Shown here piece after piece: positions 29,305 to 53,021 of a stretch of 64,000 bases of DNA; the first letter of the stretch is position 1, and each line of letters opens with the position of its first letter. Origin of the DNA: Rhodococcus pseudokoreensis (GTDB taxonomy: Bacteria; Actinomycetota; Actinomycetes; Mycobacteriales; Mycobacteriaceae); assembly GCF_017068395.1 (NCBI RefSeq), contig NZ_CP070619.1, forward strand, positions 5,580,001 to 5,644,000, read 5' to 3'. The translations under genes and the position numbers were made by a program. A model generated the notes under the pieces. That model made no database searches and was not told the origin of the DNA. It saw only the letters and a list, made by a program, of their open reading frames with translations.

Positions 29305-30102
29305 TCAGGCTGCGGATATTCCGCCGTTGACGCTGATCGCCTGCCCGGTGAGTCGGCGTGCCGCGGGGGAGGCGAGGAAGACCGCCAGCGCAGCGAGGTC
29401 TTCGGATTCGGGAACGCCGAGGTGCGCTTGCTGGGCTGCTTTGGCGAACAATTTGGCGCTGAATCCGTCGGAGGTGATCCGCTCGGTCGACCCGGTCCCG
29501 TTGACGAGCGAGGGAGTCAGGACGTTGGCGCGAATTCCGCTTCGTTTGGCTTCGATGGCGAGCGTGCGAGTGAACATGATGATTGCCGCCTTCGCTGCAC
29601 CGATCACCGATTCGCCCGGCGTCGCGGTCTTTCCCGCATCCGAAGCGACATTGATGATCACGCCACCCTTCCTCGCCGTCATGTGCGGCACGATCTCGCT
29701 CGCGAGATACATGCACGGCAAAGCCAATTGGTTGAATGTCCTTGCGATATCGTCCGTGGGTATGTTCGCGAAGAGTTCCGGCCGGACGTCGGCGGCCGTT
29801 GTGGACACCAGAATGTCCACGCCGTCGAGGATCCGCTCCGCCTCGGATGCGACATACGCCGCGCCCTCAACCGTGGTCGCATCGGCGGAGAGGAAGGTCA
29901 CCTCACAGGCCGAGTTGACGGACGAAATGCGCTCTCGCGCAGCTTCTCCGCGTTCCGCCCCGCGTCCGACGATTACGACGCCCGGAGCGCCGGCCTGGGC
30001 GAGGCCGACCGCGGTCGCGAGACCGATCCCGGCCGTGCCGCCCACGACCAGGGCACTGCTTTCCTTCAGTTCCTTCGGCGGCGCGATTTCATGCGTACCC
30101 AT
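29305..30102 (-). CDS. SDR-family protein without the catalytic tyrosine (BadH-like region)
   Basis: 265 residues from ATG 30102. The cofactor loop VVGGTAGIGLATAVGL and the serine region VIINVASDAG are present, and the surroundings resemble BadH-type hydroxyacyl-CoA dehydrogenases. The position of the active Tyr in YxxxK is Ile, in GESVIGAAKAAI; the Lys is kept. It may therefore be a reductase of the enoyl or dienoyl type, or catalytically altered. It follows the acyl-CoA dehydrogenase by 26 bases and is surely co-transcribed. Confidence 0.82.
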   Translation of the reverse strand: MGTHEIAPPKELKESSALVVGGTAGIGLATAVGLAQAGAPGVVIVGRGAERGEAARERISSVNSACEVTFLSADATTVEGAAYVASEAERILDGVDILVSTTAADVRPELFANIPTDDIARTFNQLALPCMYLASEIVPHMTARKGGVIINVASDAGKTATPGESVIGAAKAAIIMFTRTLAIEAKRSGIRANVLTPSLVNGTGSTERITSDGFSAKLFAKAAQQAHLGVPESEDLAALAVFLASPAARRLTGQAISVNGGISAA

Positions 30103-30128
30103 TCGTGTACTCCGTTCAGGGGGTGATG

Positions 30129-31283
30129 TCAGAGGGAAACTGTGCCGCGAGCGAAGATGTCCTTCGCAATGATGCGCTTCTGGATCTCTGCGGTGCCGTC
30201 CGCGACGAGGTAAGCGGTGACGTCGCGGTAGCGTTGCTGCAGCGGTGATTCCGTGGAGTACCCGAGATTTCCGTGTACGCGCATCGCGAACTCGATGGCG
30301 TTCTTCGCAACGACGGGCGGCCACCACTTGCTCATCGAGGCCAGAGCGGTGTGCGGCTGGGAGGTCTCACGCAGCCACAATGCGCGGTAGCAAATCCAGC
30401 GTGCACCTTCCAGATAGGTTGCGTGTTCGGAGAACTGGAACGCAAGCCCCTGGTGCTCGGAAAGTGGCTGACCGAACGTTTCCCGCTGCTGGGCGTACGC
30501 GGCGGCTTCCTCCAGGCTCTGCTTTGCGGCGCCCAAACACATCAGGCCGAGGGCAGCTCGACTGAAGTCGAAGTGGTCCATGACCGAGTGGAAGCCCTTG
30601 CCGAGTTCGCCGACGAGGTGAGAATCGGAAACAAAGACGTCCGACAGGTGGATACTTCCCCAGCCCAGAGGCAGGCAGCCCATACCGGGCATGTGGCTGA
30701 CGCTGACGCCTTCCGCATCGAGCGGGACGACGAAGCAGCTGACGCCTCGGGAACGGCTGGAGCCGGGCTCTCGCGCGTAGACGAGCGCCGCGGTGGCATT
30801 CATTGCCCAGGAAATTGCAGTCTTCTCGCCGTTGAGACGCCAGCCGCCCTCGACTGCCGTTGCGGTGGTGGTCAGTGCACTCGCGTCGGACCCCGACCCG
30901 GGTTCGGTCAGGGCGATGGCGATGGTCTGCTCACCGCTGATGAGGGGAGGAAGGTAGCGCTCCTGAATCTCGGCCCGGCACAGCGCCAGTTGGGAGGCGA
31001 CAAGCCCGATCTGGACGGGCGCCGACGCCATGTTCACGTCGCCGTAGGCGAGGGTTTCGGTGGCCATTCCGAGCAGAACGGGATCTTCGGTACCGGTACC
31101 GCCGTACTGCTCGGGCAGGCCGATACCCAGCAGACCCAGGTCGCCGATTTTCTTCATGATGTCGAAAGGGAATTCGGTTGATGCTGCCCGGTCGCGATAA
31201 CCCGGGAGGAGAACTCGATCACTGAACGCTGCCAGCGTCTTCCGAAACTCTTCCTGCTCGTCGGTGAATGCAAATGAAACCAT
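30129..31283 (-). CDS. Acyl-CoA dehydrogenase (AliB-like)
   Basis: 384 residues from ATG 31283, with AGGAG upstream. Motifs are IALTEPGSGSDASAL, NGEKTAISWAM, RVHGNLGYSTESPLQQRYRD and VADGTAEIQKRIIAKDIF. An Asp stands where MCAD has its catalytic Glu, as reported for some alicyclic acyl-CoA dehydrogenases. With a BadH-like SDR next to it and an acyl-CoA ligase at 39.2 kb, oxidation of a cyclohexanecarboxyl-CoA-like compound is plausible. An inverted repeat about 100 bases upstream may be the MarR site. Confidence 0.85.
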   Translation of the reverse strand: MVSFAFTDEQEEFRKTLAAFSDRVLLPGYRDRAASTEFPFDIMKKIGDLGLLGIGLPEQYGGTGTEDPVLLGMATETLAYGDVNMASAPVQIGLVASQLALCRAEIQERYLPPLISGEQTIAIALTEPGSGSDASALTTTATAVEGGWRLNGEKTAISWAMNATAALVYAREPGSSRSRGVSCFVVPLDAEGVSVSHMPGMGCLPLGWGSIHLSDVFVSDSHLVGELGKGFHSVMDHFDFSRAALGLMCLGAAKQSLEEAAAYAQQRETFGQPLSEHQGLAFQFSEHATYLEGARWICYRALWLRETSQPHTALASMSKWWPPVVAKNAIEFAMRVHGNLGYSTESPLQQRYRDVTAYLVADGTAEIQKRIIAKDIFARGTVSL

Positions 31284-31480: not shown

Positions 31481-32032
31481 TCAGTGTCCGGTTTCGACAT
31501 CGCCGACGGCACGACGCACAAGTTGCAATTGCTCGATCAGCGCTTCCAGGGTTTCGGCGTCGACCGAATCAAGGCCGAAGCGGCCCCCGGCGAGCCGGTT
31601 GTTTGCTTCCTCAACCACTTTCATGCCGGCCGGGGTGAGAGTGGCGAGAACGGTCCGGCGGTCCGTCGTATGTGCGCGGCGTTCGACGAGTCCCGCCTTG
31701 ACGAGTTGCTCGACCGCCATCGACACGGTGGTGGGGTGGACCATGAGGTACTTGCTCAACTTGCCGAGCGGACGAGTTCGTCCCTCCGAGAGTTGTAGCG
31801 AGGTCAGGATCAGATAGGCATTGCGCGACAGCCGGAGTGAGCGCAACTCCTGGTCCATCGCACGGACGACCCATTGGTGGGTGCGCAGCAACGCCATCGT
31901 GGTGACGAACTCCAGTTCGGCCGAATCCTGCCGTTCCACCCATTCGGCGCGCATCCAGTCGATCACGTCGGGCTGATCGTCGTCGGAAGACGTCGGAAAT
32001 TCACTCGCCACTGCGCGGCCTCTCGTCGTCAC
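31481..32032 (-). CDS. MarR-family transcriptional regulator
   Basis: 183 residues from GTG 32032 (an alternative GTG is at 32011). The winged helix is visible in LRLSRNAYLILTSLQLSEGRTRPLGKLSKYLMVHPTTVSMAVEQLVKAGLVERR, with the wing HTTDRRTVLATLTPAG. Such proteins usually repress catabolic genes and are released by an aromatic or acyl-CoA ligand. It lies just upstream of the acyl-CoA dehydrogenase/SDR pair on the same strand, its probable target. The N-terminal 30 residues are acidic and not conserved. Confidence 0.88.
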   Translation of the reverse strand: MTTRGRAVASEFPTSSDDDQPDVIDWMRAEWVERQDSAELEFVTTMALLRTHQWVVRAMDQELRSLRLSRNAYLILTSLQLSEGRTRPLGKLSKYLMVHPTTVSMAVEQLVKAGLVERRAHTTDRRTVLATLTPAGMKVVEEANNRLAGGRFGLDSVDAETLEALIEQLQLVRRAVGDVETGH

Positions 32033-32119: not shown

Positions 32120-33100
32120 TCAACGATGCGAGAGAACGACCTTCCCGAACCCGCTTCCCTGTTCGAGATGCTTGTGTGCGGCCGCCGCCTCTGCGAGCGG
32201 GAACACGGTATCGATGGGCACCGGTGGAATGGTGGCCGCATCGATCAGTTCCAAAAGGCCGGTGAAGTCTTGCGGGCTCCCCATCGTGGTGCCGATCAAT
32301 TCATACTGGCCGAAGTAGAAGGGTCTGACATTCAGAGTGGCGAGTTCGCTCCGAGATGCGCCCAGCACGACTAATCGGCCCCCCGGACGCAAAGCCGCGA
32401 TGGACTGTTCCCACGTCCCCACGGAATCGAGGACGAGATCGAAGCCCTGACCGTCGGGCGAGTGGTGACGAGCGGCTTCGGGCCACTCGGGGTCGCTGTA
32501 GAGCACCCCGTTCGCGGCACCGAGTTCTACTGCCTGCGCGATCTTGGACGGGGAGGAGGACGTGACTGTAACGTTTGCCCCCACGGCAGACGCCAGCATG
32601 ACGGCCATGGTCGCAACTCCCCCGCCTGCGCCCAGGACGAGGACATTCTCGCCGGCGCGGAGGCGTCCGCGGGTGAACAGCGCCCGATAGGTGGTCAGTC
32701 CGACGAGGGGGAGGGCAGCGGCCTGCTCCCAGCTGAGCCCGCGCGGTTTCGGGGCAACGCAGACCTCCGGCACCCGTACCAACTCGGCGTAGGTGCCCCG
32801 CTGGCGATCGCCGAGGATCTCCCACTGCGCGCTCGGGGCTGCTTCGCGGTCGCCCCACCACAGTGAGGGAAGGACGAGAACCTCCTCACCCGTGTCTGCG
32901 CGGATGCCCGCACCGTCCGCGCCGAGAACGTGCGGCAGTGGCGACGAGTACTTACCCTGTCGCACGAGAACATCGTGCCAGTTGAGGGCCGCAGCCTTCA
33001 ATTGGACAGTCACCCAGCCCGGGCTCGCCACCGGATCGGCGATCGACTCGATCTTCAGGACGTTCGGCTCCCCGAACTCTCGCAAAACTACGGCATCCAT
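32120..33100 (-). CDS. Zinc-free MDR oxidoreductase (quinone/enoyl reductase type)
   Basis: 326 residues. Begins MDAVVLREFGEPNVLKIE like quinone oxidoreductases, with ALNWHDVLVRQGKY and an NADPH loop VLVLGAGGGVATMAVMLAS. The zinc ligands of alcohol dehydrogenases are absent. It may reduce an alpha,beta-unsaturated ketone or acyl-CoA. Its start at 33100 faces the LuxR-type regulator pair, with an imperfect palindrome between them. Confidence 0.85.
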   Translation of the reverse strand: MDAVVLREFGEPNVLKIESIADPVASPGWVTVQLKAAALNWHDVLVRQGKYSSPLPHVLGADGAGIRADTGEEVLVLPSLWWGDREAAPSAQWEILGDRQRGTYAELVRVPEVCVAPKPRGLSWEQAAALPLVGLTTYRALFTRGRLRAGENVLVLGAGGGVATMAVMLASAVGANVTVTSSSPSKIAQAVELGAANGVLYSDPEWPEAARHHSPDGQGFDLVLDSVGTWEQSIAALRPGGRLVVLGASRSELATLNVRPFYFGQYELIGTTMGSPQDFTGLLELIDAATIPPVPIDTVFPLAEAAAAHKHLEQGSGFGKVVLSHR

Positions 33101-33139: not shown

Positions 33140-33380
33140 TTTCGACGTCGGGTGTCGTACTGCCGGTCATCGGCGTCACTGGACGCTGTGAATTCCAGAA
33201 TCACCACTTCGCCAACGTGATTGGCCGCAACACAGTTCGTAAGTCGTGTCTGCTCGACGCTTGCCCGTCGCGTGCGATTCGTGTTTAGTGATGCCAGTCA
33301 CATACACTGTATGTTTGGGTGAGGAACGTCTGCCCCGTGGCGCAATCAGCGTCGGCGAGGTGACCGAACTACGGAGCGCA

Positions 33381-34520
33381 ATGATTCGGAGAGAGCAATC
33401 AGTCGAAGTGCGGGATGAGGGTCTTGTTCAGGACGCGCACGAATGCACAGACCTCGTTTCGAAGATCCTCGGGGCCGCATACCAGGCGTCCGGGCCAGAG
33501 GATGCGTATGCCGCACTCGCGGGAGCCCGACATCAACTCGGGAACGCACTGACCGAGGGTCTATTGCCAGAGACCGACATCGAGGAGGCCTGTGTTCTCC
33601 TGGTCCGGATGGAAGATCTTCGGGAGCAATGCGCCGAGAGCGCGGCGATCCGCCGGGCCGCCGAGTTGGCGGCTGTACACGATGCCGCTGCCGGACTGCG
33701 TGATCTCGCATCCGGCGACATCGTCCAATCGGCACCAGAGGCGATTTGTTCGACGCTTCCCTTCGCGCGCGCCATGATCTCGGCGATCAGCGGATCGCTC
33801 TGGCAACCGCAGCGACTTCACGTCCGGCCGGAATTCGACGGGTCACCGATGGACTTCTCGGACTTCGTGAACTCCGCGGAGTTTCCGTTGTCCGAAGCGC
33901 GACTGGAGACCGAACTGGTTCGCCGTCGTGTGCCTGCCCTGGTCGCAGCGCCAGCGCAAGACGAACGCACGATGAAGGAAATAGTGGTCGCGTCACGCTC
34001 CTCGGGCTATGTCGCTGCACCGATCGTCTCGAGAGGCCGGGTAATCGGACTGATCCATGCCGATCGTCCCGGCGCGCGGGACCCTCTCGATCCGGACGAT
34101 CGCGACCGACTGGACGCGTTCGCGACCTTCTTCGCTCTCGTGTACGAGCAAGCGATATTGAGGGAGCGAATCAGCGCGCAGAGATCACGATTGGCGGCAT
34201 CCTTCGATTCCACCGATGTGCTGCTCGAACGCATTCAGAAGGCGGAGCTGGGCCTGCGTCCCCAGCCTGACGAGCATCCTCACATCGCTCGGCCCACAGT
34301 CGACCAGACGTCCGCGGTAGAGGTCAGCGCGGTGTTGACGTTCCGTGAGCGCGAGATTCTTTCCCATATCGCCACCGGCGCCACCAACAGTCAAATCGCA
34401 CAGACACTGGTGATCTCCGAGGGAACCGTGAAGTCGCACGTCAAGCACATTCTGAAGAAGCTGCGCGTCCCGACCCGGGCTGCAGCGGCGGTACTCTATT
34501 CCCACCAGATCCGACGATGA
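33381..34520 (+). CDS. GAF-domain LuxR-type transcriptional regulator, copy 1
   Basis: 379 residues if ATG 33381, which has CGGAG upstream, is used; an in-frame ATG at 33291 would add 30. The middle is a GAF-like sensor (residues about 110-260, including [24 protein letters not shown]). The C-terminus is a LuxR/FixJ helix-turn-helix: [45 protein letters not shown]. The following gene, a paralogue, overlaps it by 4 bases. The two probably sense a metabolite and activate the nearby P450/ferredoxin genes. Confidence 0.85.
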
Positions 34521-35719
34521 TGGATATCAAAACCGTGAACGATGGCCAATCTCGTATACAGGGCTCGGCTCAGGCGCGAGGCGACGCCGAGGCCATGAAG
34601 GCGGCCGTGTCCCTGCTCGGTCGTTTGCGGAACGACTTCGGACTGGGGCCCGAACCTCCGAGTGACACCCGGAAGGTGTCTCCCGGTCTTGTCCTCGCCC
34701 TGCTCGACGAGGCGACCGAAGCGGCGCTCAGTGCACTGTCGACGATCGTGTCGGACAAGAAGGTGTCGTTCGGAAGGCTTCTCGTCGAAATCCGCGATGT
34801 CCGCCACCGTCTGCACTCGTCACCGTCCTCGTCGGCAGTCGTCGGTGCCGCCGACTTCGCAGGCGCTGTTCGACGTCTTCGGGGTGCTGAGACAGTGGCC
34901 GGCCTGTCGAGGAGCGTGTGCGCCGAGGCCGCCGCGATGACTGGTCTTGACCGAGTGCTGCTCTCTGAGGTCCACAGCAATGCCTGGACTATCGTGGAGA
35001 CCCAGTTCGAGAGAGGCGCTGCGCCCGAAATCGATTCACTCGCCACGGCACCGATTGAGCCTGACTCACCGGAGGGACGGGCCGTGCAGAAGCGCACCGC
35101 AGTCCTCGTGCTACCGGATCGGCAGTCGCCTGCGGCGAACCCCATCAACCTCGCGAGTGCATCGTACTTCGGCGCCGGAGGGTATGTTGTAGCCCCGATT
35201 GCCGTCTCCACCGGCGTGATCGGCTTGATCCACGCGAGTCGTGCAGACGACCGAAATCCGAGTATCGCCGAACGCGACCTGCTCGATGCGTTCGCCGGCA
35301 GCTTCGGAACTCTTTTCGAACGAGCAATGGTGTCCGAACGATTGACCAAGCAGAAGCGGTTGATCGTCGAACGCCTGGAGCAGGAGAGTCGCGAGGCGGA
35401 AGTGCTCTCGAATTCAGAAGTTGCGCTCGGAAAGCCGCGTGCCGCCGGTGCCGCATCATTCTCACCGGCGGCGCTGCCCTCACACTGCAACGCACCGGGC
35501 TTGGAAGAACTTACCGGGCGTGAACGCGAAGTGTTCCAGCTCCTGGCGGCAGGCAAATCCAACACGGAAATTGCAGATGTACTTGTGATCAGTGTCTTCA
35601 CAGTGAAATCGCATGTCAAAAAGATCCTGCGAAAGCTGGGAGCGATGAACCGGTCCGAGGCGATCTACCGATACTTGGAGATGGCCAAGTCTGACGCCTC
35701 GTCCGGCCGCACCACCTAG
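34517..35719 (+). CDS. GAF-domain LuxR-type transcriptional regulator, copy 2
   Basis: 400 residues, same architecture as the upstream gene: helical N-terminus, GAF-like sensor ([24 protein letters not shown]) and a C-terminal helix-turn-helix ([45 protein letters not shown]). The two paralogues are coupled by an ATGA overlap, suggesting a stoichiometric pair or heterodimer. Its 3' end faces the ferredoxin gene stop only one base away, with no room for a terminator. Confidence 0.88.
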
Positions 35720-35720: not shown

Positions 35721-36041
35721 TCAACCGTTCGTGTCGGGTACGACGACTCGGAGTCCATTGCATCGATCGTTGACGATCAACTGGCACGACAAGCGTGAGT
35801 GTGCCTGCACCCCATCGAGGTACTCGAGTAGATCACGCTCCTCGTCCGTGGCCTCGTCGAACAGCCCCTGGGAGTCCTCGTCGAGGAAAACATGACAAGT
35901 TGCGCACGAGCAGCTTCCACCGCATTCGGCGACGATCCCCGGGAGATTGTTGCGGACCGAGCCGTCCATGATGCTCTGACCGGACGGGACGTCGATAGTC
36001 GACTCACTTCCATCGGGCAGTACGTAGGTGATCTCGCTCAT
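35721..36041 (-). CDS. 2Fe-2S ferredoxin (putidaredoxin/terpredoxin type)
   Basis: 106 residues. Cluster ligands are Cys40, Cys46, Cys49 and Cys86 (CGGSCSCATC then LSC), exactly the spacing of putidaredoxin; an extra Cys44 lies inside the loop. It carries electrons from an NADH-dependent ferredoxin reductase to a class I P450. It lies 16 bases after the P450 stop and is its obvious partner. No reductase gene is found in the window, so that component must come from elsewhere in the genome. Confidence 0.95.
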   Translation of the reverse strand: MSEITYVLPDGSESTIDVPSGQSIMDGSVRNNLPGIVAECGGSCSCATCHVFLDEDSQGLFDEATDEERDLLEYLDGVQAHSRLSCQLIVNDRCNGLRVVVPDTNG

Positions 36042-36057: not shown

Positions 36058-37380
36058 TCAGTGAAGTTCCAGTCGGACGGGCAGATTCTTGAGGCCGCCG
36101 ACGAAGTTCGTCTGGAGCACGCGTGCGTCACCGATCTGCTCCAACTTGGCGATCTTCGGCAGCAGCTCTTCGAACATGATTCGAAGTTCGATCTTCGCAA
36201 GGTGCTGTCCGATGCACATGTGCGGTCCGTACCCGAAAGCGATGTGCTTGTTGGGCTTCCGGTCGAAGCGAAAAGTGTCGGGTGAGTCGAACACGTCGCT
36301 GTCGCGGTTCGCTGACTGGTAGAGAAGCACCAGTCGATCACCCTTCTTGATCTGCTGTCCACGGAGGGTGTAGTCGACGGACGCCTGGCGGGTGAACTGC
36401 TTCACCGGCGATGCCCAGCGCAAGGACTCGTTCACCAGATCGGGGATCAGAGAGGGGTCGGCCTGTACCCGGGCGAGCTGGTCAGGGTTCTCGATCAACG
36501 CATGCAGACCGGTCGCCAAGGTGGTAGACGTGGTGTCGTGACCAGCGGTTGCGATGGCGATGAACCAGCCGTAGGCGAAGGTTTTCGGGTAGTAGTCGCC
36601 GTTCTCGTCCTTCCCGGCCGCGATCAGAGTCGCGAGGTCGTCGCGGGGATTCGCGCGACGGTCTTCGACGAGTGCGTCGAAGTAGGCGTAGAAATCCGCG
36701 ATGGCAGCCGAAAATTGTTGTGCTGCCGCTTCCGGGGTCAGGGGTTCGACGTCGTCACGCTGCTCGTCGGGATCTGCGACTCCGAAGAAGTCCTGAGTCA
36801 ACGCCATCATCCGCGGCTCGTCTTCTTCCGGGACACCGAAGAGGCTCATGATCACGTGGAGCGGAAAGGACTTGGTGAAGTTCTCGACGAGGTCGATCTC
36901 GGTTCCCGATCGGCGAAGCTCCGCAACCGATTCCTGTGCCAGCTCCCGAATGATGCCTTCCCATTTCTTCAGGTTCGCCGGCCGGAACCAGTCCGCGGCG
37001 AGATCCTTCACTGCGGTGTGCTCAGGTGGGTCCAGATAGGTGATCGTGTCGAGGATCCGGAGACTGCCGCCGGTCAGGCTCTTGGTGAAGGCATCACCCG
37101 CCTGATTCGTGAGAATCGGATTATGGGAGCCCTTGTCCTCTCCGCCGCCGCTGTTGAAAATCTGGGGTTGTTTTTCGATTTCCATGATGTCGGCGTGCTT
37201 GGTCACCAGCCACAGAGGATCGTAGCCCTCGACCTCCACCTTCCCGAGCGGGTTGTTGGTTCGCAACCACTCGTAGGCCGCGTAAAGTGAAACTTCGTCT
37301 CTATGGCCCTCAGGTAGGACGATCTGCTCGGCGATGCTTTTCGGGATCGGAACGCTCGATACGTGTTCGACGGTAGTCAC
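36058..37380 (-). CDS. Cytochrome P450, CYP108 (P450terp)-like
   Basis: 440 residues from GTG 37380, with GAGGAGA upstream. I-helix AGHDTTSTT, ExxR in NESLRW, and the haem loop [17 protein letters not shown] with Cys near residue 389. The protein follows P450terp (CYP108A1, alpha-terpineol hydroxylase) through most of its length: [56 protein letters not shown] and [13 protein letters not shown]. It probably hydroxylates a methyl or ring carbon of a terpenoid or alicyclic alcohol. The ferredoxin follows in the same operon. Confidence 0.93.
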
Positions 37381-37457
37381 ACTGTCTCCTCGCAGTTTTG
37401 AATTCTCTACATCTTCGCTGTGATCCAAGTCTCGCGTAGGCCGCCCGATGAAACGTC

Positions 37458-37492
37458 ATCTCTACGAGAGATATTCGTACGCCCTTAGGGCG
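37458..37492. promoter_or_regulatory. Two palindromes upstream of the P450 gene
   Basis: ATCTCTACGAGAGAT (37458-37472, perfect 6-bp arms, 3-base spacer) and CGCCCTTAGGGCG (37480-37492, perfect 6-bp arms, one central base) lie 78-112 bases upstream of the P450 start. These are good candidate sites for the GAF-LuxR pair. Confidence 0.55.
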
Positions 37493-37524
37493 AAATCGCT
37501 TCGTGATCATGTAGCTGGCATCAG

Positions 37525-37568
37525 CGAAACAGGGGCTGCTGCAACATTGTTGCGCAGCCCCTGTTTCG
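37525..37568. terminator. Terminator hairpin after the CoA ligase gene
   Basis: A perfect 15-bp stem (37525-37539 with 37554-37568); the 14-base interior can pair further (GCAACA with TGTTGC). It lies just past the ligase stop (37583, minus strand) and before the P450 promoter, isolating the two units. Confidence 0.85.
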
Positions 37569-37582
37569 GGTAGCTTGTGGTC

Positions 37583-42592: not shown

Positions 42593-43170
42593 GCCACGAA
42601 CTCCACATCTGAGACGAGCCAGCGGCCGTCCACCGAATCGAGGGAGACCTTCATGCGGTACACCCGGATCTCCCCGTCGGGTGCCTCGGTGTTTTTCACC
42701 GTGGATGTCACGGCGGCGAGGACGACGGCGTGGTCGTCGTCCGCCTTGACGAGGCCGGCTTCCTTCACTTCGCCGGTCGACTCCACCTGGCCCTGGTTGA
42801 GCACGTCACCGAAACTTCCCGATGCGCTGGTGAACTGGTCTCGGAACGGCCCGGTGGTGCCGTCGGCGACGCGCTGGATGTCTTCGTCCACGCTCTGATG
42901 CCGCAGCGTGACCAGATTGACTACCACCTGGCGGGCCGTCTCGAGGACCTGTTGGTCTCGGGACTGTGCGGTCTGTTCGGCGCGCAGGTTCGTCCACGAG
43001 ATCCCGCCGACGACCAGGGCGGCGACGGCGACGAGTACGACTGCCGCCGTCGTCACGATGAACCCTCGGGCACTCTTACGCACCTCGGAGTCGGCTATCG
43101 CGGCCGCGGCATCGTTCCCGGCTTGATCGAGGTCTGGTTCGACCTCTACCGGAGCAGTAGTGCCTGCCAT
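42589..43170 (-). CDS. Mce-associated membrane protein
   Basis: 193 residues, a paralogue of the next gene in layout: acidic N-terminus, single membrane helix (GFIVTTAAVVLVAVAALVVGGISW) and periplasmic domain (LRHQSVDEDIQRVADGTTGPFRDQFTS). ATG 43170 lies inside the end of mceF (25-base overlap), showing tight coupling. Accessory factor of the Mce transporter. Confidence 0.85.
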   Translation of the reverse strand: MAGTTAPVEVEPDLDQAGNDAAAAIADSEVRKSARGFIVTTAAVVLVAVAALVVGGISWTNLRAEQTAQSRDQQVLETARQVVVNLVTLRHQSVDEDIQRVADGTTGPFRDQFTSASGSFGDVLNQGQVESTGEVKEAGLVKADDDHAVVLAAVTSTVKNTEAPDGEIRVYRMKVSLDSVDGRWLVSDVEFVA

Positions 43171-45772: not shown

Positions 45773-46983
45773 CGTGGTCCCTCCGGAAGGATGAGGTTCT
45801 GGAGACTTTGGGTGATGGAGGCGACGGGATCGGTCGGTGCAGGTGCGCCCGGCATACCCCCCGGCGCAGCCGGGGTGGTGGCAGGAGTAGGTACCGCCTG
45901 CCGCACGGCGGCATTGGCCAACGGTGCGGCAAAAGCTCTTGCAGCCGTAGCACATTCATTTGCGGGTGCGTCGACCGTGGTCAAGAGTGCGCAGATCAGC
46001 GAGCGCGGGTCCGGCATCTCGGGCACGGCGAGGGCACCGGTGAGCGAGTTGGCGTCGGCATCGTAGATGTTGTAGAAGTCCGACAGCGCCGTCGGTCCCG
46101 AGTGCAGGATCGACATCAGGGTGTCCTGGCGGTCGACGAGCAACCGGGTAATGTCCTCGAGCTGTCCGACGTTCTCGACCAGCGCCCCACGGTTGTCTTC
46201 GATGAACTTCGTCACTTCCTGGAACGTGGTCAGCATGCTGCTCAGCATCGCGTCGAGTTCGGTCCGGTTGGCGTTGAGCAGCCCCGATACGTTCGCGAAT
46301 TCGCTGCTGAACGCCCGGATCTGCTGGTCACTGGCAGCGAGGGCGGTCGTGAACTTCTGCAGGTTTTCAACAGTGCCGAACAGGTCCTCGCCGCTTGCGT
46401 TCAGCGTGGTGGCGGCGTCAGAGAGATGGGTGAGGGAGTCGTGCAGCGCCGTGCCCGTCCCGTCTAGGGTCCTGGCGGTGCTGCTCACGAAGCGATTGAG
46501 CGAACCGTCCGGGTGCTCCGGGGTGCGGCCGGCGTCCTCGGCGAGCTTGACCACCTGCTTCTTGATCTCGTCGAACTCGACCGGGACGGCGGTGCGGTCG
46601 AGGGGGATTTCGTCGCCGTCGGACAGGGTCGGTCCGCCCGAGTATGCCGGTGCCAGCTGGATGTAGCGGCCGGTCACCAAGGTCGGGGCGACGACCGCAG
46701 CCTTCGCGTCCGCGGGAACGTCGTAATCGTTGTCGTAGTCGAATTCCACCCGGACCCGCTCGCCGTCCGGTTCGATCGTCGTGATGCGGCCTACCTCGAC
46801 ACCGAGGATCATCACTCGGTCTCCGACGTACATGCCGGTGGTGTTCCGGAAGTAGGCCGTGACGTGGTTGACGGAGTGGTTTTCGATCCAGGCGGCGGTC
46901 ACCAGCCCGACGAGGGCGACCGCGATCACCACGGCGAGCAGTTTCGCCGGCAGTGCGCGTGCCATTTCCCGTACCGATGCCAT
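45769..46983 (-). CDS. mceD: MceD, Mce-family protein
   Basis: 404 residues. Membrane helix KLLAVVIAVALVGLVTAAWI, MCE domain TAYFRNTTGMYVGDRVMILGVEVGRITTIEP and a helical shaft (ALAASDQQIRAFSSEFANVSGLLNANRTELD). C-terminal Pro/Ala/Thr-rich tail. Fourth Mce subunit; its start shares one base with the mceC stop. Confidence 0.93.
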   Translation of the reverse strand: MASVREMARALPAKLLAVVIAVALVGLVTAAWIENHSVNHVTAYFRNTTGMYVGDRVMILGVEVGRITTIEPDGERVRVEFDYDNDYDVPADAKAAVVAPTLVTGRYIQLAPAYSGGPTLSDGDEIPLDRTAVPVEFDEIKKQVVKLAEDAGRTPEHPDGSLNRFVSSTARTLDGTGTALHDSLTHLSDAATTLNASGEDLFGTVENLQKFTTALAASDQQIRAFSSEFANVSGLLNANRTELDAMLSSMLTTFQEVTKFIEDNRGALVENVGQLEDITRLLVDRQDTLMSILHSGPTALSDFYNIYDADANSLTGALAVPEMPDPRSLICALLTTVDAPANECATAARAFAAPLANAAVRQAVPTPATTPAAPGGMPGAPAPTDPVASITQSLQNLILPEGPR

Positions 46984-47984
46984 CAGCGCGGCCCTCCGAA
47001 ACTGCCCGGAAGCTGCCCGGAGAGATTGGCCGGGACGATGTTGTGGAGCAGCACCCCGAAGAACGGTCCGCTGCCCACCGCCTCGCCGACCTGCTTCGTG
47101 AAATGTTCGAGGCCGGTCAGCGAGGCGTTGATGTTGTCGTAATTGCTGTTCAATGTCGCCACCAGGGTCTTCAACTGTTCGAGAGTGGGTCCGAGTGTGG
47201 ATGCGTTGTCGCGGGACAGGCCGGTGAGCGCATCGGCCACCTGACGTGACTGCACGAGCACCCGATGGATGGTGTCCGCCCGGCTGTTCAGCGCGGCGAA
47301 GAGCGACTGGCCCTGGCCGAACAGCGCGGAGACCTGGGTGTCCCGGTCCGCGAGAATCTGAGACACGTTGGCCGCCCCGGCGAGCAACTGACGCAGTTCC
47401 TCGTCCCGGCTCGCCACTGTGTCGGACAGGCGGGAGAGGCCGTCGAGGGAGGACCGCAGGTCCGGCGGAAGCTCGTCCTCGACCGAGGAGATCTGCTCGA
47501 GTGCGCCGGAGAGGTTGACGGTGTCGGTCTCCGACACTTTGTCGGTGACTTCCTCGAGCGCGCGGGTGATGTCGTATCCCGAGCTGGTCTGGGCAAGGGG
47601 GATGGTCGCGCCGTCGGCGAGCTCGCCGTGTCGTCCGGGAGTGATCTCCACGTACCGCCGACCGAGAGCAGTTTCGACCTTGATCGCGGCGGTCGTGTCC
47701 TCGCCGAGCCCAACCGCACCGCTGTCCGCGTCGAATTCGACGTCAACCTTTCCCCCGGAAATGGACAGCCCCTTTACTTTGCCGACCTCTACACCCGCAA
47801 TCTGCGTGGTGTCACCGACCGCGAGGCCACTGGCGTCGGCGAACTCGGCGTGATATGTGGTTGCCCTGTTGATACCGGGAATGGAGTTGAAGTTGAGCGC
47901 GAGGAACAGGATCCCGATCAACACCGCTGTTCCGATCAGGCCCATGCGGAACGAATCCCGCTCGAGGAAGGACTTCTGAGCCAT
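46983..47984 (-). CDS. mceC: MceC, Mce-family protein
   Basis: 333 residues from ATG 47984, which overlaps the mceB stop as TGATG; an upstream GTG at 47993 is possible but less well placed. Helix FRMGLIGTAVLIGILFLALNF, MCE domain AEFADASGLAVGDTTQIAGVEVGKVKGLSI, helical region, and the common ending LSGQLPGSFGGPR. Third Mce subunit. Confidence 0.92.
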   Translation of the reverse strand: MAQKSFLERDSFRMGLIGTAVLIGILFLALNFNSIPGINRATTYHAEFADASGLAVGDTTQIAGVEVGKVKGLSISGGKVDVEFDADSGAVGLGEDTTAAIKVETALGRRYVEITPGRHGELADGATIPLAQTSSGYDITRALEEVTDKVSETDTVNLSGALEQISSVEDELPPDLRSSLDGLSRLSDTVASRDEELRQLLAGAANVSQILADRDTQVSALFGQGQSLFAALNSRADTIHRVLVQSRQVADALTGLSRDNASTLGPTLEQLKTLVATLNSNYDNINASLTGLEHFTKQVGEAVGSGPFFGVLLHNIVPANLSGQLPGSFGGPR

Positions 47985-48991
47985 CACTGACACCTTTCTG
48001 CGGGAGCCTTGAACATCGGTGTGACGCCGCCGGGACCTGGGCCGGACGCGTACTTGATAGCGAGACCACAGACGAAGAAGTTCACGAAGCTGCCGTAACC
48101 CGCGACGCGGCCGATGAGTCGGTAGTTCTCGGGCAGAGTGGACAGCACCATGTTCAGCGTGTCGGTATTCGCGTTGAGGTTGCCCGCGAGATCACCCAGC
48201 GCGACGACATCCTGCGCGATTGCCGGCCGATTCTGATCGAGAACACTTGCGAGGCTGTTCGTGACACGATCGATGTTCCCCAAGGAATTGGTGATCAGAT
48301 CACGGTCACCGTCGAGGCCCGCGACCAGTCGCTGCAATTGGTCGATCAATGCCGAGAACTGGTCACCGCGATTGTTCACCGTCCCGACTACCGTATTGAA
48401 GTTGCTCACCACCTGACCGATCGCCTGATCACGGTCCGCCAACGTGTTGCTCAAGGACCCGATTTGAGTCACCAGACGCCCGATACTCGCTTCCTGGCCG
48501 TTCAGTACCTCGATCAGCGAGGCGGACAACTGATTGGTCTGATCCGGGTCAAGCCCCTGCAGCAGTGGCCGGAAACCGTTGACCACCTGGTCGAGGTCGA
48601 GCGCCGGAGTGGTCTGCGCGAGTGGAATCGGACCGTCGAGCGCGCCGATGGCACCTGGCCCGTTCGACAGCTCCACATAGCGGTCACCGATCAGGTTCTT
48701 GTACTTGATCCGGGCCGTGGTCCCCTCAGTCAGGGGACGTTCGGTGGAGAGAGAGAACGACACGACTGCCGTGCCGTCCGAGGCCAACTCCACCCCCTTC
48801 ACCTTGCCCAACGGCACGCCGCCGACTTTGACGTCTTCGCCGTTGCCCAGCCCGGACGCGTTCGAAAAAACGGCTTGATAGGTGTGTGTGCTGCCGAAGC
48901 GCATATTTCCCACCACCGTCGCCACACCGAACCCCGTCAACGAGGTGACCAGCACGAAGATCAGCAACTTGATACCCGGTGCCTTCGTCAT
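47984..48991 (-). CDS. mceB: MceB, Mce-family protein
   Basis: 335 residues. Helix KLLIFVLVTSLTGFGVATVVG, MCE domain AVFSNASGLGNGEDVKVGGVPLGKVKGVEL and a long helical part ending GGVTPMFKAPAERC. Second Mce subunit; start shares one base with the mceA stop. Confidence 0.93.
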   Translation of the reverse strand: MTKAPGIKLLIFVLVTSLTGFGVATVVGNMRFGSTHTYQAVFSNASGLGNGEDVKVGGVPLGKVKGVELASDGTAVVSFSLSTERPLTEGTTARIKYKNLIGDRYVELSNGPGAIGALDGPIPLAQTTPALDLDQVVNGFRPLLQGLDPDQTNQLSASLIEVLNGQEASIGRLVTQIGSLSNTLADRDQAIGQVVSNFNTVVGTVNNRGDQFSALIDQLQRLVAGLDGDRDLITNSLGNIDRVTNSLASVLDQNRPAIAQDVVALGDLAGNLNANTDTLNMVLSTLPENYRLIGRVAGYGSFVNFFVCGLAIKYASGPGPGGVTPMFKAPAERCQ

Positions 48992-50154
48992 CAGCGAACA
49001 CCTCCGAACATGAACTGCGCGAACGGGTTACCGATCAGATCCTCGATACCGTGCGCCGTCTGGTAGGCCTTGCTGCCGTCGTCGAAATCGGTATGCCCGG
49101 GAGCCTGGGCGGGGTCGTAACACCGCGGTGCGCCGTCCGCACCGTTCTTCGGCGCGTTCTCCGGGTACGTGTACGGCGGATCACCCATCAGCAGAGTGCC
49201 GAGAATGTTCAGGCCTGCCTGATCACTTCCACCGACGGTGCGCTCGAGGTACTTGTTTGTCTGATCCATACTCGCAAGGAAGCACGGGTACATCGGCGCA
49301 TTCTGTGCAAGGAGTGCCGTCGTCGGTTCCAACGCATCCAACGACTTTTCCAACGGGTCACCGGAGGCTTCGAAGAAGCTGCGCCCGCTGTTGCCGAAAC
49401 CGCTGAAACTGAGCAGGAAGGCGCTCAATTGCTGCTCCTTCTCGGTCACCGTGTCACCCGTGGTGCTGACATGGTCGACGGTCCGGAGGAGATCCGGAGC
49501 GGCGTCGGCGAGGATGTCGGAGACCTCCGCGCCCTTGACCAGGTCGCGCTGCAACGTGGGAAGGCTGCCGTTGAATTCGGACAGGTAGGTGTCGAGTTCG
49601 ACCATCATGTCGCCGAGTTGGTCGCCGCGGCCCTGCAGCGAGGTGGACAGCGCACTCAACGTCGCGTTGACCTTCTGTGGTTCCACGGTCCGCAGCACCG
49701 TCACCAAGGAGTCGAGGAGATCGTTCACCTCGGTGGCCACGGCGGTGCCCTGAACCACGGATCCCGCCGACACGGTGGTCGCCGAGGGATGCTCCGGTTG
49801 CACGAGGGTCACGAACTTGCGTCCGAACAGCGTGGTCGGATCGATCACGGCCGTGATGTTCTCCGGTATCGCCGAAGTCCGGCTCCCGTCGATGTCCATG
49901 GTGATTTCGGCCTGGTCGTCCACCAACTGCACCTTCGCCACCCTGCCGACGACGACATCTCGCATTTTGATGTCGGACCCGGGTTCGAGCATCAGGCCCG
50001 ACCGCGCCGAGTACAGCTTGACCGGGACGGTCGAGTGGAACGATCCGCGGTAGATGCCGACGGAGACGGCCGTTGCGATCGCGATCAGCGTCACCAGACA
50101 CACACCCAGGAGCACATAGACCAGGCGGCTCCGCTCTTCGATATGGCCACCCAT
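48991..50154 (-). CDS. mceA: MceA, Mce-family protein
   Basis: 387 residues. Helix LVYVLLGVCLVTLIAIATAVSVGI, MCE domain LYSARSGLMLEPGSDIKMRDVVVGRVAKVQL, then a helical shaft with paired cysteines near the end (MYPCFLAS, APRCYDP) and the typical GNPFAQFMFGGVR tail. First Mce subunit, starting 1 base after the YrbE B stop. Confidence 0.93.
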   Translation of the reverse strand: MGGHIEERSRLVYVLLGVCLVTLIAIATAVSVGIYRGSFHSTVPVKLYSARSGLMLEPGSDIKMRDVVVGRVAKVQLVDDQAEITMDIDGSRTSAIPENITAVIDPTTLFGRKFVTLVQPEHPSATTVSAGSVVQGTAVATEVNDLLDSLVTVLRTVEPQKVNATLSALSTSLQGRGDQLGDMMVELDTYLSEFNGSLPTLQRDLVKGAEVSDILADAAPDLLRTVDHVSTTGDTVTEKEQQLSAFLLSFSGFGNSGRSFFEASGDPLEKSLDALEPTTALLAQNAPMYPCFLASMDQTNKYLERTVGGSDQAGLNILGTLLMGDPPYTYPENAPKNGADGAPRCYDPAQAPGHTDFDDGSKAYQTAHGIEDLIGNPFAQFMFGGVR

Positions 50155-50155: not shown

Positions 50156-51025
50156 TCAGCCCGACACTTTCACGGCGCCGGCCGAGCCACCGTAGACGGC
50201 GATTCCGACGAGAAGGTCGATCACCATGATCGCGATCAAGGAGGTACGCACCGCACGTCCAACCGCGACCCCGACTCCTGCAGGCCCGCCCTTCGCGTTG
50301 TAGCCGTGGTAGCAGTGCACACACATCACGACCACGGACATCGCGAGGACTTTCACCATCGACCATGCGACGTCACTCGGCACGAGGAAGACGTTGAAAT
50401 AGTGCTGGTAGGTTCCGCTCGCCTCACCGAGGTACTCGGTAACCAGCTGCGTGGCGACATACCCGACGAACAACGCCACGGCGTAGAGCGGAATCACCGC
50501 GATGACTCCGGCGGTGACGCGAGTCGTCACCAGGTAGGGCAGCGACGGAATCGACATCGTCTCCATGGCATCGATTTCCTCGCTCACTCGCATCGCCCCG
50601 AGTTGCGCAGTGAAACCCGCACCGACCGTCGCGGTCAGCGCGATTCCCGCGATGACGGGGATCGCTTCCCGGGTGTTGAAGAATGCCGAGATGAACCCCG
50701 ACAGCGCGCCGATTCCGATGCGGCCGAGCGAGGTCACGCCCTGCTGGCCCACCTCGTACCCCACTGCGGTAGTGAGCAGTGAAATGACGACAAGGGTTCC
50801 ACCGATCACCGCCAGGGCGCCGGTGCCCATACTGACCTCGGCGAGCAGCCGGATCGTTTCCTTCCGGTACCGCCGGAAGGTGCGCGGAATGGCGGTGACA
50901 GCATGAGTGTAGAAATGGAGCTGCCTGCCCATCTCCTCCATGTGGCCGACCGGTGCATCGACCACGCGGAGCGCGATCGTGGCAACCCTGGGTCTCGCGC
51001 CGGTGGCCCGAGTAGCTTTCGACAC
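50156..51025 (-). CDS. yrbEB: YrbE B permease of the Mce importer
   Basis: 289 residues from GTG 51025, preceded by GGGAGA. MlaE-type permease: MGTGALAVIGGTLVVISLLTTAVGYEVGQQG, the EEIDAMETMSIPSLPYLVTTRV coupling helix that contacts the ATPase, and several further membrane segments. Pairs with YrbE A as the inner-membrane channel. Confidence 0.93.
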   Translation of the reverse strand: MSKATRATGARPRVATIALRVVDAPVGHMEEMGRQLHFYTHAVTAIPRTFRRYRKETIRLLAEVSMGTGALAVIGGTLVVISLLTTAVGYEVGQQGVTSLGRIGIGALSGFISAFFNTREAIPVIAGIALTATVGAGFTAQLGAMRVSEEIDAMETMSIPSLPYLVTTRVTAGVIAVIPLYAVALFVGYVATQLVTEYLGEASGTYQHYFNVFLVPSDVAWSMVKVLAMSVVVMCVHCYHGYNAKGGPAGVGVAVGRAVRTSLIAIMVIDLLVGIAVYGGSAGAVKVSG

Positions 51026-51073
51026 AGAATTCTCCCGTAGACAGCCGACTTCGCGGCTAATGGTGGAGCGCTG

Positions 51074-51868
51074 TCAGTGCAGCGCGAGAGTCGTGATAAC
51101 CGAATTGGCGAGGAAGAGAAGCAGGAAGCTGAACACGACGGTCTGGTTGACGGCGTCGCCGACTCCCTTGGGCCCGCCCTTGGCGTTGAGCCCCAGATGG
51201 CATGCGACAAGCCCTGCAAGCATCCCAAACACCGCCGCCTTCACCTCGCTGACGAGGAAATCAGGCAGTCCGGTCAAGATCGAGATCGCCGTGACGTACT
51301 GGCCGGGAGACGCACCCTGCATGTACACCGTCGCGATGTAACCGCCCACAAGGCCGACCGCGGACACGAGTCCGTTCAGAAACATCCCGATCAGAGTCGA
51401 CGCCAACACCCTCGGCACACACAGGCGTTGAATCGGATCGATCCCCAGCACCTTCATCGCGTCGATCTCTTCGCGAATCGTCCGGGAACCCAGGTCGGCG
51501 CAGATTGCGGTCGACCCGGCACCTGCAACGACGAGAACCGTGACCACCGGGCCGATTTCACGGATGATCGCCACACCCGCGCCTGCACCGCTGAGGTCGA
51601 CAGCGCCGATCTCCGCCAGCAGGATGTTGATCTGGTAGACGAACATCATGCAGAAGGGAATCGCCATGAGCAACGCGGGCATGATCGAGACGCCGGCGAT
51701 GAACCATGCCTGCTGAACGAACTCGCGAGCATGGAAGGGGCGCTTGAACATGCACCGGAACGTCTCCATCGACGTCGCGTAGAACGCCCCGACAGCCGTC
51801 GGCGCGACCTGAATGGCCTTCCGGACAGCGCTCGCCCTCGGCGGGCGGTCTTTCAGATCTACCGACAT
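51074..51868 (-). CDS. yrbEA: YrbE A permease of the Mce importer
   Basis: 264 residues. Same MlaE family as YrbE B: EFVQQAWFIAGVSIMPALLMAIPFCMMFVYQINILLAEIGAVDLSGAG, then IREEIDAMKVLGIDPIQRLCVPRVLA as the coupling helix. First permease gene of the operon, beginning 49 bases after the alcohol dehydrogenase stop. Confidence 0.93.
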   Translation of the reverse strand: MSVDLKDRPPRASAVRKAIQVAPTAVGAFYATSMETFRCMFKRPFHAREFVQQAWFIAGVSIMPALLMAIPFCMMFVYQINILLAEIGAVDLSGAGAGVAIIREIGPVVTVLVVAGAGSTAICADLGSRTIREEIDAMKVLGIDPIQRLCVPRVLASTLIGMFLNGLVSAVGLVGGYIATVYMQGASPGQYVTAISILTGLPDFLVSEVKAAVFGMLAGLVACHLGLNAKGGPKGVGDAVNQTVVFSFLLLFLANSVITTLALH

Positions 51869-51917
51869 CGAACAACCTTTCTCACTGTTTCCGGAGCATC
51901 CGAGGGGGAGCCGGCCA

Positions 51918-53021
51918 TCATTCGTGAACGAGGACGACCTTCACCGCCTCACCCCGATGCTGGACAGCCACAGCTTCATTGATCTGTGAGAACGGCATCG
52001 TCGTGATCAACTTGTCGAACGGGAATCTGCCCTGACGGTGCAGATCGAGGAGGTACGGAATGAACGTATCGGGGTCGGCATCCCCCTCGACGATCCCTCG
52101 GATCGTGAGACCGAACAGCTGGGTCGCCATCATTCCGATCGGAAGTGTGGCGGTGGGGTCGGCCGGGACACCGATGAGGCCGAGAGACCCCCGGACACCC
52201 AGTGACTGCAGGATCTGGTCCAGCACGGGAAGGAGCGCCGTCGTGTCGATCGCATAGTCGACGCCGTCGGGAACAATTGCCCGGATCTGCTCGGAGAGAA
52301 CGCCATCCGCGGGATCGACGACGTGTGTGGCGCCCAGGGAGAGCGCGAGTTCGCGCCGCGACTCGTGTGGTTCGACGACGATGATCACACCGACCTCACG
52401 GACTACGGCGGCGAGCACGGATGCCAGGCCGACCGAACCTGCTCCGACGACCACCAGTGACGAACCAGGATCGACGTCGAGTGAGTTGAACACCGCACCG
52501 GCGCCGGTCTGGATTCCGCAGCCGAGCGGGCCTACGAGTTCGAGCGGGGCGTCGTCCGCAACCTTCACGACATTGCGCTCATGAGCGATGGCATGTGTCG
52601 CGAGGGAGGACTGCCCGAAGAAGTTGCTGCCGAGCCCAGTGTCACCGGCGGTAATCGCGGAACTGCCGTCCGGGCGCACGCCCCCGAAGTTGTAGGCCAT
52701 GAAATTGTGGCAGTAGGCAGGCTCACCCTTCTCGCAGTGGGCGCACTGGCCGCAACTGTTGAAGCTGATGGCGACCTTGTCGCCTTCAGCGACCTTGGTG
52801 ACCCCGGATCCGACCTTCACGACCGTGCCGCTGCCTTCGTGGCCGAAAACACCCGGGAGGGGGAACGGGAGATGGCCCTCCTTGACTGCCAGGTCGGTGT
52901 GGCAGAGGCCGACGCCGGCGATCGCGACGAGGACTTCGTGTTCCGTGGGTTCGCTCAGGGACACGGTCTCGATGGCGAAGTCGCCCGAGACTTCGTGGAC
53001 TACGGCGGCGCTGATCTGCAC
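51918..53021 (-). CDS. Zinc-dependent alcohol dehydrogenase (aryl/terpenoid alcohol type)
   Basis: 367 residues from GTG 53021 with TAGGAG upstream. Catalytic zinc ligands Cys in GLCHTD and His in GHEGSG; structural zinc cysteines in SCGQCAHCEKGEPAYC; cofactor loop VVGAGSVGLASVLA. The sequence resembles benzyl- and perillyl-alcohol dehydrogenases (AdhB/XylB group), which would feed aldehydes to the dehydrogenase at 40.9 kb. It is the first gene in front of yrbEA and probably shares the promoter of the mce operon. Confidence 0.92.
   Translation of the reverse strand: MQISAAVVHEVSGDFAIETVSLSEPTEHEVLVAIAGVGLCHTDLAVKEGHLPFPLPGVFGHEGSGTVVKVGSGVTKVAEGDKVAISFNSCGQCAHCEKGEPAYCHNFMAYNFGGVRPDGSSAITAGDTGLGSNFFGQSSLATHAIAHERNVVKVADDAPLELVGPLGCGIQTGAGAVFNSLDVDPGSSLVVVGAGSVGLASVLAAVVREVGVIIVVEPHESRRELALSLGATHVVDPADGVLSEQIRAIVPDGVDYAIDTTALLPVLDQILQSLGVRGSLGLIGVPADPTATLPIGMMATQLFGLTIRGIVEGDADPDTFIPYLLDLHRQGRFPFDKLITTMPFSQINEAVAVQHRGEAVKVVLVHE

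Follow-up and report, generated by a model that had tools for sequence, protein, structure and literature searches.

Known Mce-plus-P450 and CYP108 systems and the R. pseudokoreensis locus

In actinobacteria, the linkage of a Mce importer to cytochrome P450 genes is known from the Mce4/CYP125-CYP142 cholesterol island, and the P450terp operon of Pseudomonas combines a P450 with a ferredoxin, an alcohol dehydrogenase (ADH), and an aldehyde dehydrogenase (ALDH). To our knowledge, the latter operon is linked to neither mce nor CoA ligase genes, and most Mce systems have no established cargo. The cargoes proven for Mce systems are sterols and fatty acids (PMC9947336, PMC6498646), with Mce4 serving steroid uptake (PMC6498646), as stated in the accessible parts of these reports. 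Here, we analyzed a 64,000-nucleotide stretch of the Rhodococcus pseudokoreensis genome (contig NZ_CP070619.1, positions 5,580,001 to 5,644,000; hereafter the window, with coordinates counted from its first letter), which carries an mce operon next to the gene of a CYP108-family P450. We read this cluster as a coupled island for import and oxidation, and for that explanation as a whole we estimate a probability of roughly 0.55. It is likely that the importer and the P450 chain form one functional unit, because their linkage recurs across genera, related clusters carry reciprocal CYP108 copies, and the P450 gene shares a cis element with a neighboring NlpC/P60 gene; on this point, the proposal of a single system in the first-pass annotation is supported.

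Like the Mce4 island, the cluster links a Mce importer with a P450, dehydrogenases, a CoA ligase, and an acyl-CoA dehydrogenase (ACAD). It differs from that island in having CYP108 in place of CYP125, in carrying ADH and ALDH genes within the mce run, and apparently also in its mce locus (the closest of the genome's other MceA proteins, which is not necessarily Mce4, is 41% identical to the cluster MceA). With the P450terp operon it shares the P450-ferredoxin-ADH-ALDH logic, whereas the mce operon and the CoA ligase set it apart. The CYP108J1 cluster of Rhodococcus sp. P14 likewise contains two LuxR regulators, a ferredoxin, a CYP108, an ADH, and an ALDH; in the accessible part of that report, its published gene list has no mce or CoA ligase gene and includes a ferredoxin reductase and a neighboring enoyl-CoA hydratase (PMC7037279), whereas the window yielded no such reductase and the P450 has no hydratase gene as a neighbor. 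The locus thus matches a CYP108J1-type cluster neither in gene set nor in the NarL arms considered below. New relative to the known Mce-plus-P450 island are the CYP108, an exchangeable oxygenase, the NlpC/P60 partner, and an operator common to the P450 and NlpC genes. The combination of P450terp-like chemistry with a Mce importer had been called nonstandard: CYP108-mce linkage was nowhere described in the results of our literature searches, which left most subscription journals outside their coverage, but the Mce4 island shows that the general kind, Mce plus P450, is already known.

Linkage of CYP108 genes to mce operons across genera

CYP108 loci were sampled as the best 80 of 233 relatives, with one genome per species and flanks of up to 10 kb on each side, and a locus was scored as linked when two of YrbE, ATPase, and Mce lay within 10 kb of the CYP108 gene. 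By this strict rule, an mce operon accompanied 13 of the 80 loci and 12 of the 60 with full flanks; two loci cut by contig ends (L022 and L053) and one showing the ATPase only (L056) stand outside the count. Chance would account for about 2%, a rough estimate from five mce operons in 9.87 Mb. The 13 loci span Rhodococcus, Nocardia, Gordonia, Nocardioides, Marmoricola, and Pseudonocardia. Since the mce operons of the last three genera are of another type (YrbA, 44 to 48% identity; ATPase, 49 to 50%), the CYP108 association covers two mce types. Furthermore, a LuxR match was found near CYP108 in 51 of the 80 loci.

P450s within 10 kb of an mce operon numbered 2 of 44, 2 of 34, 2 of 31, and 2 of 28 in four Rhodococcus genomes (counted by hand, with split hits merged), and in each genome the two were the cluster CYP108 and one other conserved case. 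Thus, linkage to mce is not a general property of P450s in those Rhodococcus genomes. Separately, a second P450 gene lies about 4.3 kb from a further mce operon that encodes an MceG-like ATPase of its own, in the source genome (G000, C6:6519452-6529919) and in genomes G016, G034, and G013.

Gene content and organization of the cluster

Of the 264 mechanical open reading frames (ORFs) listed for the window, 40 were scanned with Pfam. Pfam and NCBIfam scans placed every gene named in the first-pass annotation at its coordinates, and the three regulators mentioned there are one MarR and two GAF-LuxR proteins. The features of the cluster are as follows.

29305-30102, minus strand: short-chain dehydrogenase/reductase (SDR) (Pfam; 87 to 94% identity in five Rhodococcus orthologues)
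30129-31283, minus strand: AliB-like ACAD (95 to 97% identity in the orthologues)
31481-32032, minus strand: MarR regulator (Pfam; kept in 5/5 orthologues)
32120-33100, minus strand: quinone/enoyl reductase-like protein of the medium-chain dehydrogenase/reductase (MDR) family (kept in 5/5 orthologues)
33246-34520, plus strand: GAF-LuxR regulator 1 (Pfam)
34517-35719, plus strand: GAF-LuxR regulator 2 (Pfam)
35721-36041, minus strand: 2Fe-2S ferredoxin (Pfam)
36058-37386, minus strand: CYP108-family cytochrome P450 (Pfam and identity to solved CYP108 structures)
37419-37433, minus strand: P450-promoter copy of the cis element GAGACTYGRRTCACA; GACG lies 24 nt upstream of it
37525-37568: perfect 15-bp inverted repeat, a likely terminator after the CoA ligase gene
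37583-39250, minus strand: AliA/FadD-like acyl-CoA ligase (Pfam/NCBIfam)
39413-39446: perfect 12-bp inverted repeat after the ALDH gene, largely conserved in the orthologues
39453-40898, minus strand: ALDH, last gene of the ADH-mce run
40965-42008, minus strand: MceG/Mkl-type ATPase
42062-42592 and 42589-43170, minus strand: two mce-associated proteins (assigned by position and conservation)
43146-50154, minus strand: mceF, mceE, mceD, mceC, mceB, and mceA (MlaD domains; TIGR00996 above cut-off in all six)
50156-51868, minus strand: yrbEB and yrbEA permeases (MlaE domain)
51918-53021, minus strand: zinc ADH, benzyl-alcohol-dehydrogenase-like, first gene of the mce run
53269-53283, plus strand: second perfect copy of the cis element, before the NlpC/P60 gene in the ADH/NlpC intergenic region, with GACG 25 nt upstream
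53327-54685, plus strand: lytic transglycosylase/NlpC-P60 peptidase (Pfam)

Two YrbE proteins followed by six MCE-domain proteins give the makeup of an Mce transporter, and an MceG/Mkl ATPase is encoded inside the same run. NCBIfam gave no match for the first mce-associated protein. Against the PDB, the cluster MceA reached 198 bits with 8fed_A, a full-length Mce protein, and 52 bits with a short Mce4A domain. The source genome holds five full mce loci and three MceG-like copies above the strict threshold (E up to 1e-150), the cluster ATPase being 95% identical to the two others.

From ADH to ALDH, gaps between neighbors are at most 66 bp and most mce genes overlap. The CoA ligase gene follows 202 bp past the ALDH gene, the P450 gene 196 bp past the ligase gene, and the ferredoxin gene 16 bp past the P450 gene. 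The GAF-LuxR pair runs opposite to the P450 chain, and the MDR, MarR, ACAD, and SDR genes then lie on the minus strand. As judged from this layout, transcription probably proceeds in three or more units: the ADH-to-ALDH run, the CoA ligase, and P450-ferredoxin. A simple sigma-70 scan was uninformative (one promoter-like site versus 2.5 expected). The limits first drawn for the unit (29305 to 53021) enclose the right content but are too narrow, since the NlpC-P60 gene lies outside them yet belongs to it.

No ferredoxin reductase was present among the 40 Pfam-scanned ORFs, and tblastn of three reductases from related loci against the window returned nothing better than an E value of 0.47. Because no such reductase was found in the window, "self-contained," as the system had been called, is too strong. 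At two Nocardia loci, a ferredoxin-reductase-type flavoprotein gene adjoins the P450-ferredoxin pair.

Reciprocal CYP108 copies in orthologous clusters

Among 28 Rhodococcus genomes, the source genome included, the cluster MceA was found in six: the source and, at 93 to 95% identity, R. opacus B4 (G016), R. wratislaviensis NCTC13229, R. jostii NBRC 16295, R. koreensis DSM 44498, and genome G034. All five orthologous clusters keep the NlpC, ADH, mce, ATPase, ALDH, ligase, MDR, MarR, ACAD, and SDR genes, the last four sitting on the far side of the cluster in R. koreensis.

The internal P450 is missing from all five, and four different junctions stand in its place. B4 and R. wratislaviensis share identical breakpoints: homology is interrupted between 36053 and 37419, so that the ferredoxin gene now follows the former P450 promoter. 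The corresponding interruption in R. jostii lies between 35930 and 37524 and truncates the ferredoxin, while in G034 the P450 slot is filled by 1.3 kb with an IS605-type OrfB/TnpB gene (L117:15464-16636; Pfam). In R. koreensis, the P450 and ferredoxin genes are both absent, and their earlier presence is not shown there. The ferredoxin therefore stands without its P450 in four of the five orthologues, shortened in one of them.

A second CYP108 (69 to 70% identity) with its own ferredoxin lies beyond NlpC in 4/5 orthologues; in R. jostii, the contig ends in that region, and a like P450 (L034) with the motif lies near the end of another contig. No second CYP108 was found within the 64-kb window, whose homology to B4, R. 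wratislaviensis, and G034 ends exactly at the NlpC stop codon. Thus, every cluster is accompanied by a CYP108, whichever side it lies on. We read this pattern as differential loss of two ancestral CYP108 copies; a gain in the window lineage appears less likely, since the ferredoxin or promoter of the internal P450 persists in B4, R. wratislaviensis, R. jostii, and G034.

A cis element shared by the P450 and NlpC/P60 genes

Alignment of P450 promoters yielded the 15-bp element GAGACTYGRRTCACA preceded by GACG, a bipartite form that can be written GACG-N20-GAGACTCGAGTCACA; the window was scanned only afterwards. It contains exactly two perfect copies, one before the P450 gene and one 43 bp before the likely NlpC start (53327), within the 305-bp intergenic region that NlpC shares with ADH, versus none in 100 shuffles. 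In eight genomes, 17 perfect copies were found, and in G005, none. Fifteen of them lie at the cluster or its Nocardia counterpart, nine before the P450 gene or its remnant and six before NlpC; in every one of these, GACG stands 24 nt (P450) or 25 nt (NlpC) upstream. The two remaining copies lack GACG at this spacing: one precedes another NlpC/P60 homologue on contig 5 of R. koreensis, and one (C6:5291281-5291295, the third perfect copy in the source genome) has no recognized target. With up to one mismatch allowed, forward and reverse counts added up to 43, compared to 4 for a reversed control pattern. Upstream of 86 CYP108 genes, the element was perfect in 13 rows, or 10 after three duplicated genomes were dropped, while the best match upstream of the ADH, FadD, LuxR1, MDR, MarR, ACAD, SDR, YrbA, and ALDH genes was 10/15. 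At a Gordonia desulfuricans CYP108 locus, a bipartite copy with two mismatches (L064:6389-6403) was noted about 230 bp before the ADH match.

The NarL arms of the CYP108J1 system, GAAAGTTG and CAACTTTC, were also sought, contiguously (up to three mismatches), with gaps of 0 to 20, and singly (up to one mismatch). None of these forms occurred in the P450 upstream region (37387-37582). The single arm GAAAGTTG with up to one mismatch gave 25 matches versus 24.2 expected, hence no enrichment, and none of the 25 fell in that region.

NlpC/P60 and sister mce operons on plasmids

An NlpC homologue occupies the same place in all five orthologues. Moreover, plasmids pROB01 of R. opacus B4 (L130:6690-26554) and pRB11 of R. 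oxybenzonivorans (L131:5695-28541) carry sister mce operons (identity to the window: MceA, 64 to 67%; YrbE, 84 to 88%; YrbA, 86 to 88%), in which an NlpC/P60 gene lies directly downstream of the mce ATPase gene. Upstream of the sister mce genes are those for an NDMA (N,N-dimethyl-4-nitrosoaniline)-dependent ADH, an R2-like ligand-binding oxidase (R2lox), a flavoprotein reductase, a ferredoxin, an ALDH, an SCP2 protein, and a CoA ligase. These plasmid modules thus resemble the window cluster in mce, ADH, ALDH, CoA ligase, ferredoxin, and NlpC/P60, but have the R2-like oxidase, SCP2, and a two-component regulator in place of CYP108 and LuxR. This content favors the view that NlpC/P60 is a companion of mce and that the oxygenase is the component open to exchange. 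Close kinship judged by the ATPase was dropped: MceG-like proteins are about 90 to 97% identical across many mce copies of the genus, and kinship to the sister operons therefore rests on YrbE and MceA to MceF.

In the accessible parts of the respective reports, few non-Mce proteins are strongly reduced in an MceG mutant of M. tuberculosis, and RipC, an NlpC/P60 protein, is one of them (PMC9947336); one R2lox is described as an alkane hydroxylase (PMC10867098). Mce complexes have to get across the cell wall, and in the NlpC/P60 enzyme they have a candidate partner that cuts peptidoglycan; the plasmid modules, in turn, give R2-like oxidases a metabolic setting. Tentatively, a Mce family may have specialized as the front end of oxygenase-started cassettes, in which the importer, the ADH-ALDH-ligase set, and NlpC/P60 would be constant, the oxygenase exchangeable, and P450 and NlpC/P60 under one private operator. 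If so, wall opening and substrate attack would be coordinated through that operator, and the range of Mce cargo would take in terpenoids, alicyclic compounds, or hydrocarbons besides sterols and fatty acids.

Identity of the P450

The window P450 scored 705.8 bits against P450tol of Rhodococcus coprophilus TC-2 (PDB 7v40; 69.1% identity) and 457.8 bits against CYP108A1, the P450terp enzyme (48.1% identity). Under the CYP naming rule, more than 40% identity defines a family and more than 55% a subfamily; the window P450 is therefore a CYP108 that falls short of subfamily CYP108A. The family first assigned to it stands, although its nearer relative is P450tol and not CYP108A1. Eleven residues are reported around toluene in P450tol in the accessible part of PMC11219674. 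At these positions, the window P450 departs from P450tol at three (A112T, P114T, and W223F) but matches CYP108A1 at 10 of 11, the sole change being T for S at 112. Thus, the window P450 is nearer to P450tol in overall likeness but nearer to P450terp in its pocket.

In a FastTree tree of 91 sequences, which left out the fragmentary L070 and L072 and three duplicate regions and was read by topology alone, the window P450 forms a lone branch. The mce-linked CYP108s of other Rhodococcus and of Nocardia group beside P450tol along with a few others of no evident linkage, and those of Gordonia, Nocardioides/Marmoricola, and Pseudonocardia fall elsewhere. P0001 (98% identity) was set aside as a relative, being probably the window's own protein. 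The source genome has a second CYP108 at C6:5560575-5561888, 18 kb left of the window and about 54 kb from the window P450; it is 68% identical to the latter, and its companions in the tree are Rhodococcus loci where LuxR, ferredoxin, ADH, and ALDH genes are present but mce genes are missing within 10 kb.

Candidate substrate and route

According to the accessible parts of the reports, CYP108A1 acts on alpha-terpineol, CYP108N12 and CYP108N14 oxidize ring methyls of p-cymene and limonene, P450tol hydroxylates toluenes (PMC11219674), and CYP108J1 oxidizes polycyclic aromatic hydrocarbons (PAHs) (PMC7037279). In the window, the ADH resembles benzyl alcohol dehydrogenase. The best PDB matches of the ligase are salicylate/dihydroxybenzoate (DHB)-AMP ligases, and its second best curated model, scored below cut-off, is cyclohexanecarboxylate-CoA ligase. 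The best curated model of the ACAD is cyclohexanecarboxyl-CoA dehydrogenase (AliB, TIGR03207), and among 131 AliB-model matches in the genome it ranks at the top, the next one scoring 244.5 bits. The SDR is generic by model, and none of the genes was assigned as a hydratase. The top BadI-model match among 96 in the genome (9757-10530) lies about 20 kb from the cluster, in the following gene.

9745-10530, minus strand: BadI/MenB-like crotonase, a possible ring-cleavage step, loosely linked (model cut-offs missed)

This gene is found at 95% identity or more in 9 of the 28 genus genomes, including all six with the mce cluster, which may simply be close relatives. It is part of a row of SDR, acyl-CoA dehydrogenase, and crotonase genes on the minus strand (7593-10530), a candidate ring-cleavage group.

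The proposed route would begin with the YrbE pair, MceA to MceF, and their own MceG ATPase bringing a hydrophobic cyclic compound inward across the mycolic-acid envelope, with the peptidoglycan-cutting NlpC/P60 enzyme assisting the complex. The P450 would then hydroxylate a ring-attached methyl, with electrons supplied via its ferredoxin and a reductase encoded elsewhere; ADH and ALDH would turn the alcohol into an acid, and the CoA ligase would activate it to a ring-carboxyl-CoA. The AliB-like ACAD and the SDR may start ring breakdown, possibly with the BadI-like hydrolase 20 kb away.

For the substrate, the cyclic terpenoid or alicyclic compound of the first-pass annotation gains from the pocket and from the AliB and BadI ranks and loses from the missed cut-offs and from the overall closeness of the P450 to P450tol. 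We therefore weakly favor, at somewhat less than even odds, a monocyclic terpenoid or alicyclic compound that bears a ring methyl. Similarly, of the AliA/AliB-like enzymes invoked earlier, the ACAD has its top AliB rank in its favor, whereas both the AliA and AliB cut-offs are missed.

Weighing of alternative explanations

Several observations weigh against a coupled island for a terpenoid or alicyclic compound. No mce operon is visible in the fetched flanks of 65 of the 80 CYP108 loci. The ligase reached 399.6 bits against the AliA model TIGR03208 (cut-off, 792.3), and the ACAD about 304.5 to 304.8 bits against TIGR03207 (cut-off, 575.35). The best score for the BadI model TIGR03210 was 327.8 bits (cut-off, 467.6), and a BadI assignment for 9745-10530 was dropped, the MenB model scoring slightly higher and all cut-offs being missed. 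The MceA of R. koreensis and the NlpC of R. wratislaviensis each read in two frames. Of the 13 strictly linked loci, only 5 have a perfect element upstream (6 of 15 when the two loci truncated by contig ends are added), all in Rhodococcus or Nocardia; it is absent from the Gordonia, Nocardioides, Marmoricola, and Pseudonocardia loci, and two Mycobacterium CYP108 loci with no mce in the fetched flanks carry it with one mismatch. Since the ADH upstream region matches it at 10/15 at best, coregulation of the mce operon is not shown. Volatile monoterpenes, moreover, may need no importer. In a Rhodococcus metagenome-assembled genome (MAG; L042, 12249-14001), the stretch that starts inside NlpC and runs through the mce ATPase is missing, and the P450, the ligase, and an ALDH split in two frames are retained; this genome is 74% complete, and the gap is a deletion or a misassembly.

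That the importer and the P450 chain are chance neighbors, with mce serving envelope lipids and the P450 an unrelated pathway, would fit the majority of CYP108 loci without mce, the MAG, the terminator-like repeats between the units, and the lack of the element upstream of ADH. We nevertheless regard it as the least probable reading, given linkage that recurs across genera, the reciprocal CYP108s, an element common to P450 and NlpC, and ADH and ALDH genes inside the mce run. A coupled unit could instead act on an alkyl-aromatic compound or a PAH, taken through a benzylic alcohol or phenol to an aromatic acid and aryl-CoA. This unlikely but serious contender draws on the 69% identity to toluene-hydroxylating P450tol (PMC11219674), on the PAH-oxidizing CYP108J1 with its two LuxR, ferredoxin, ADH, and ALDH neighbors (PMC7037279), both as given in the accessible parts, and on the benzyl-alcohol-type ADH and a ligase nearest to salicylate/DHB-AMP ligases in the PDB. 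Positions 112, 114, and 223, on the other hand, fit CYP108A1 better than P450tol, and the NarL arm GAAAGTTG is neither enriched nor present in the P450 upstream region. Furthermore, an aromatic acid does not require an ACAD plus SDR. Improbable, and more so than an aromatic substrate, is a larger lipid (a sterol side chain, a di- or triterpenoid, or a branched hydrocarbon) handled in the manner of Mce4 with CYP125. The proven Mce cargoes (PMC9947336, PMC6498646) and the sister operons, with their sterol-carrier-like SCP2 genes and an R2-like oxidase of a type with one reported alkane hydroxylase (PMC10867098), agree with it as far as these sources are accessible; the activities reported for CYP108s, however, concern monoterpenes, toluenes, and PAHs, and no steroid-specific Pfam family occurred among the 40 window ORFs, a weak test. 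The coupled import-and-oxidation island is thus the reading we prefer, and its defined mce locus, short enzyme chain, shared operator, and natural P450-loss strains make the cargo question directly testable.

A kinase gene beside the cluster

One further gene lies near the SDR end of the cluster.

25050-28523, minus strand: Ser/Thr kinase with AAA and MalT-type TPR region, a possible sensor (Pfam)

Judging from its relatives, this kinase, which we take to be PknK-like, is perhaps also part of the unit. No homologue was found in the fetched stretches of the five Rhodococcus orthologues. A homologue with 73% identity lies beside the pROB01 module, and another, with 56% identity, is encoded between the mce ATPase and the P450 in a Nocardia genome (G006, L031).

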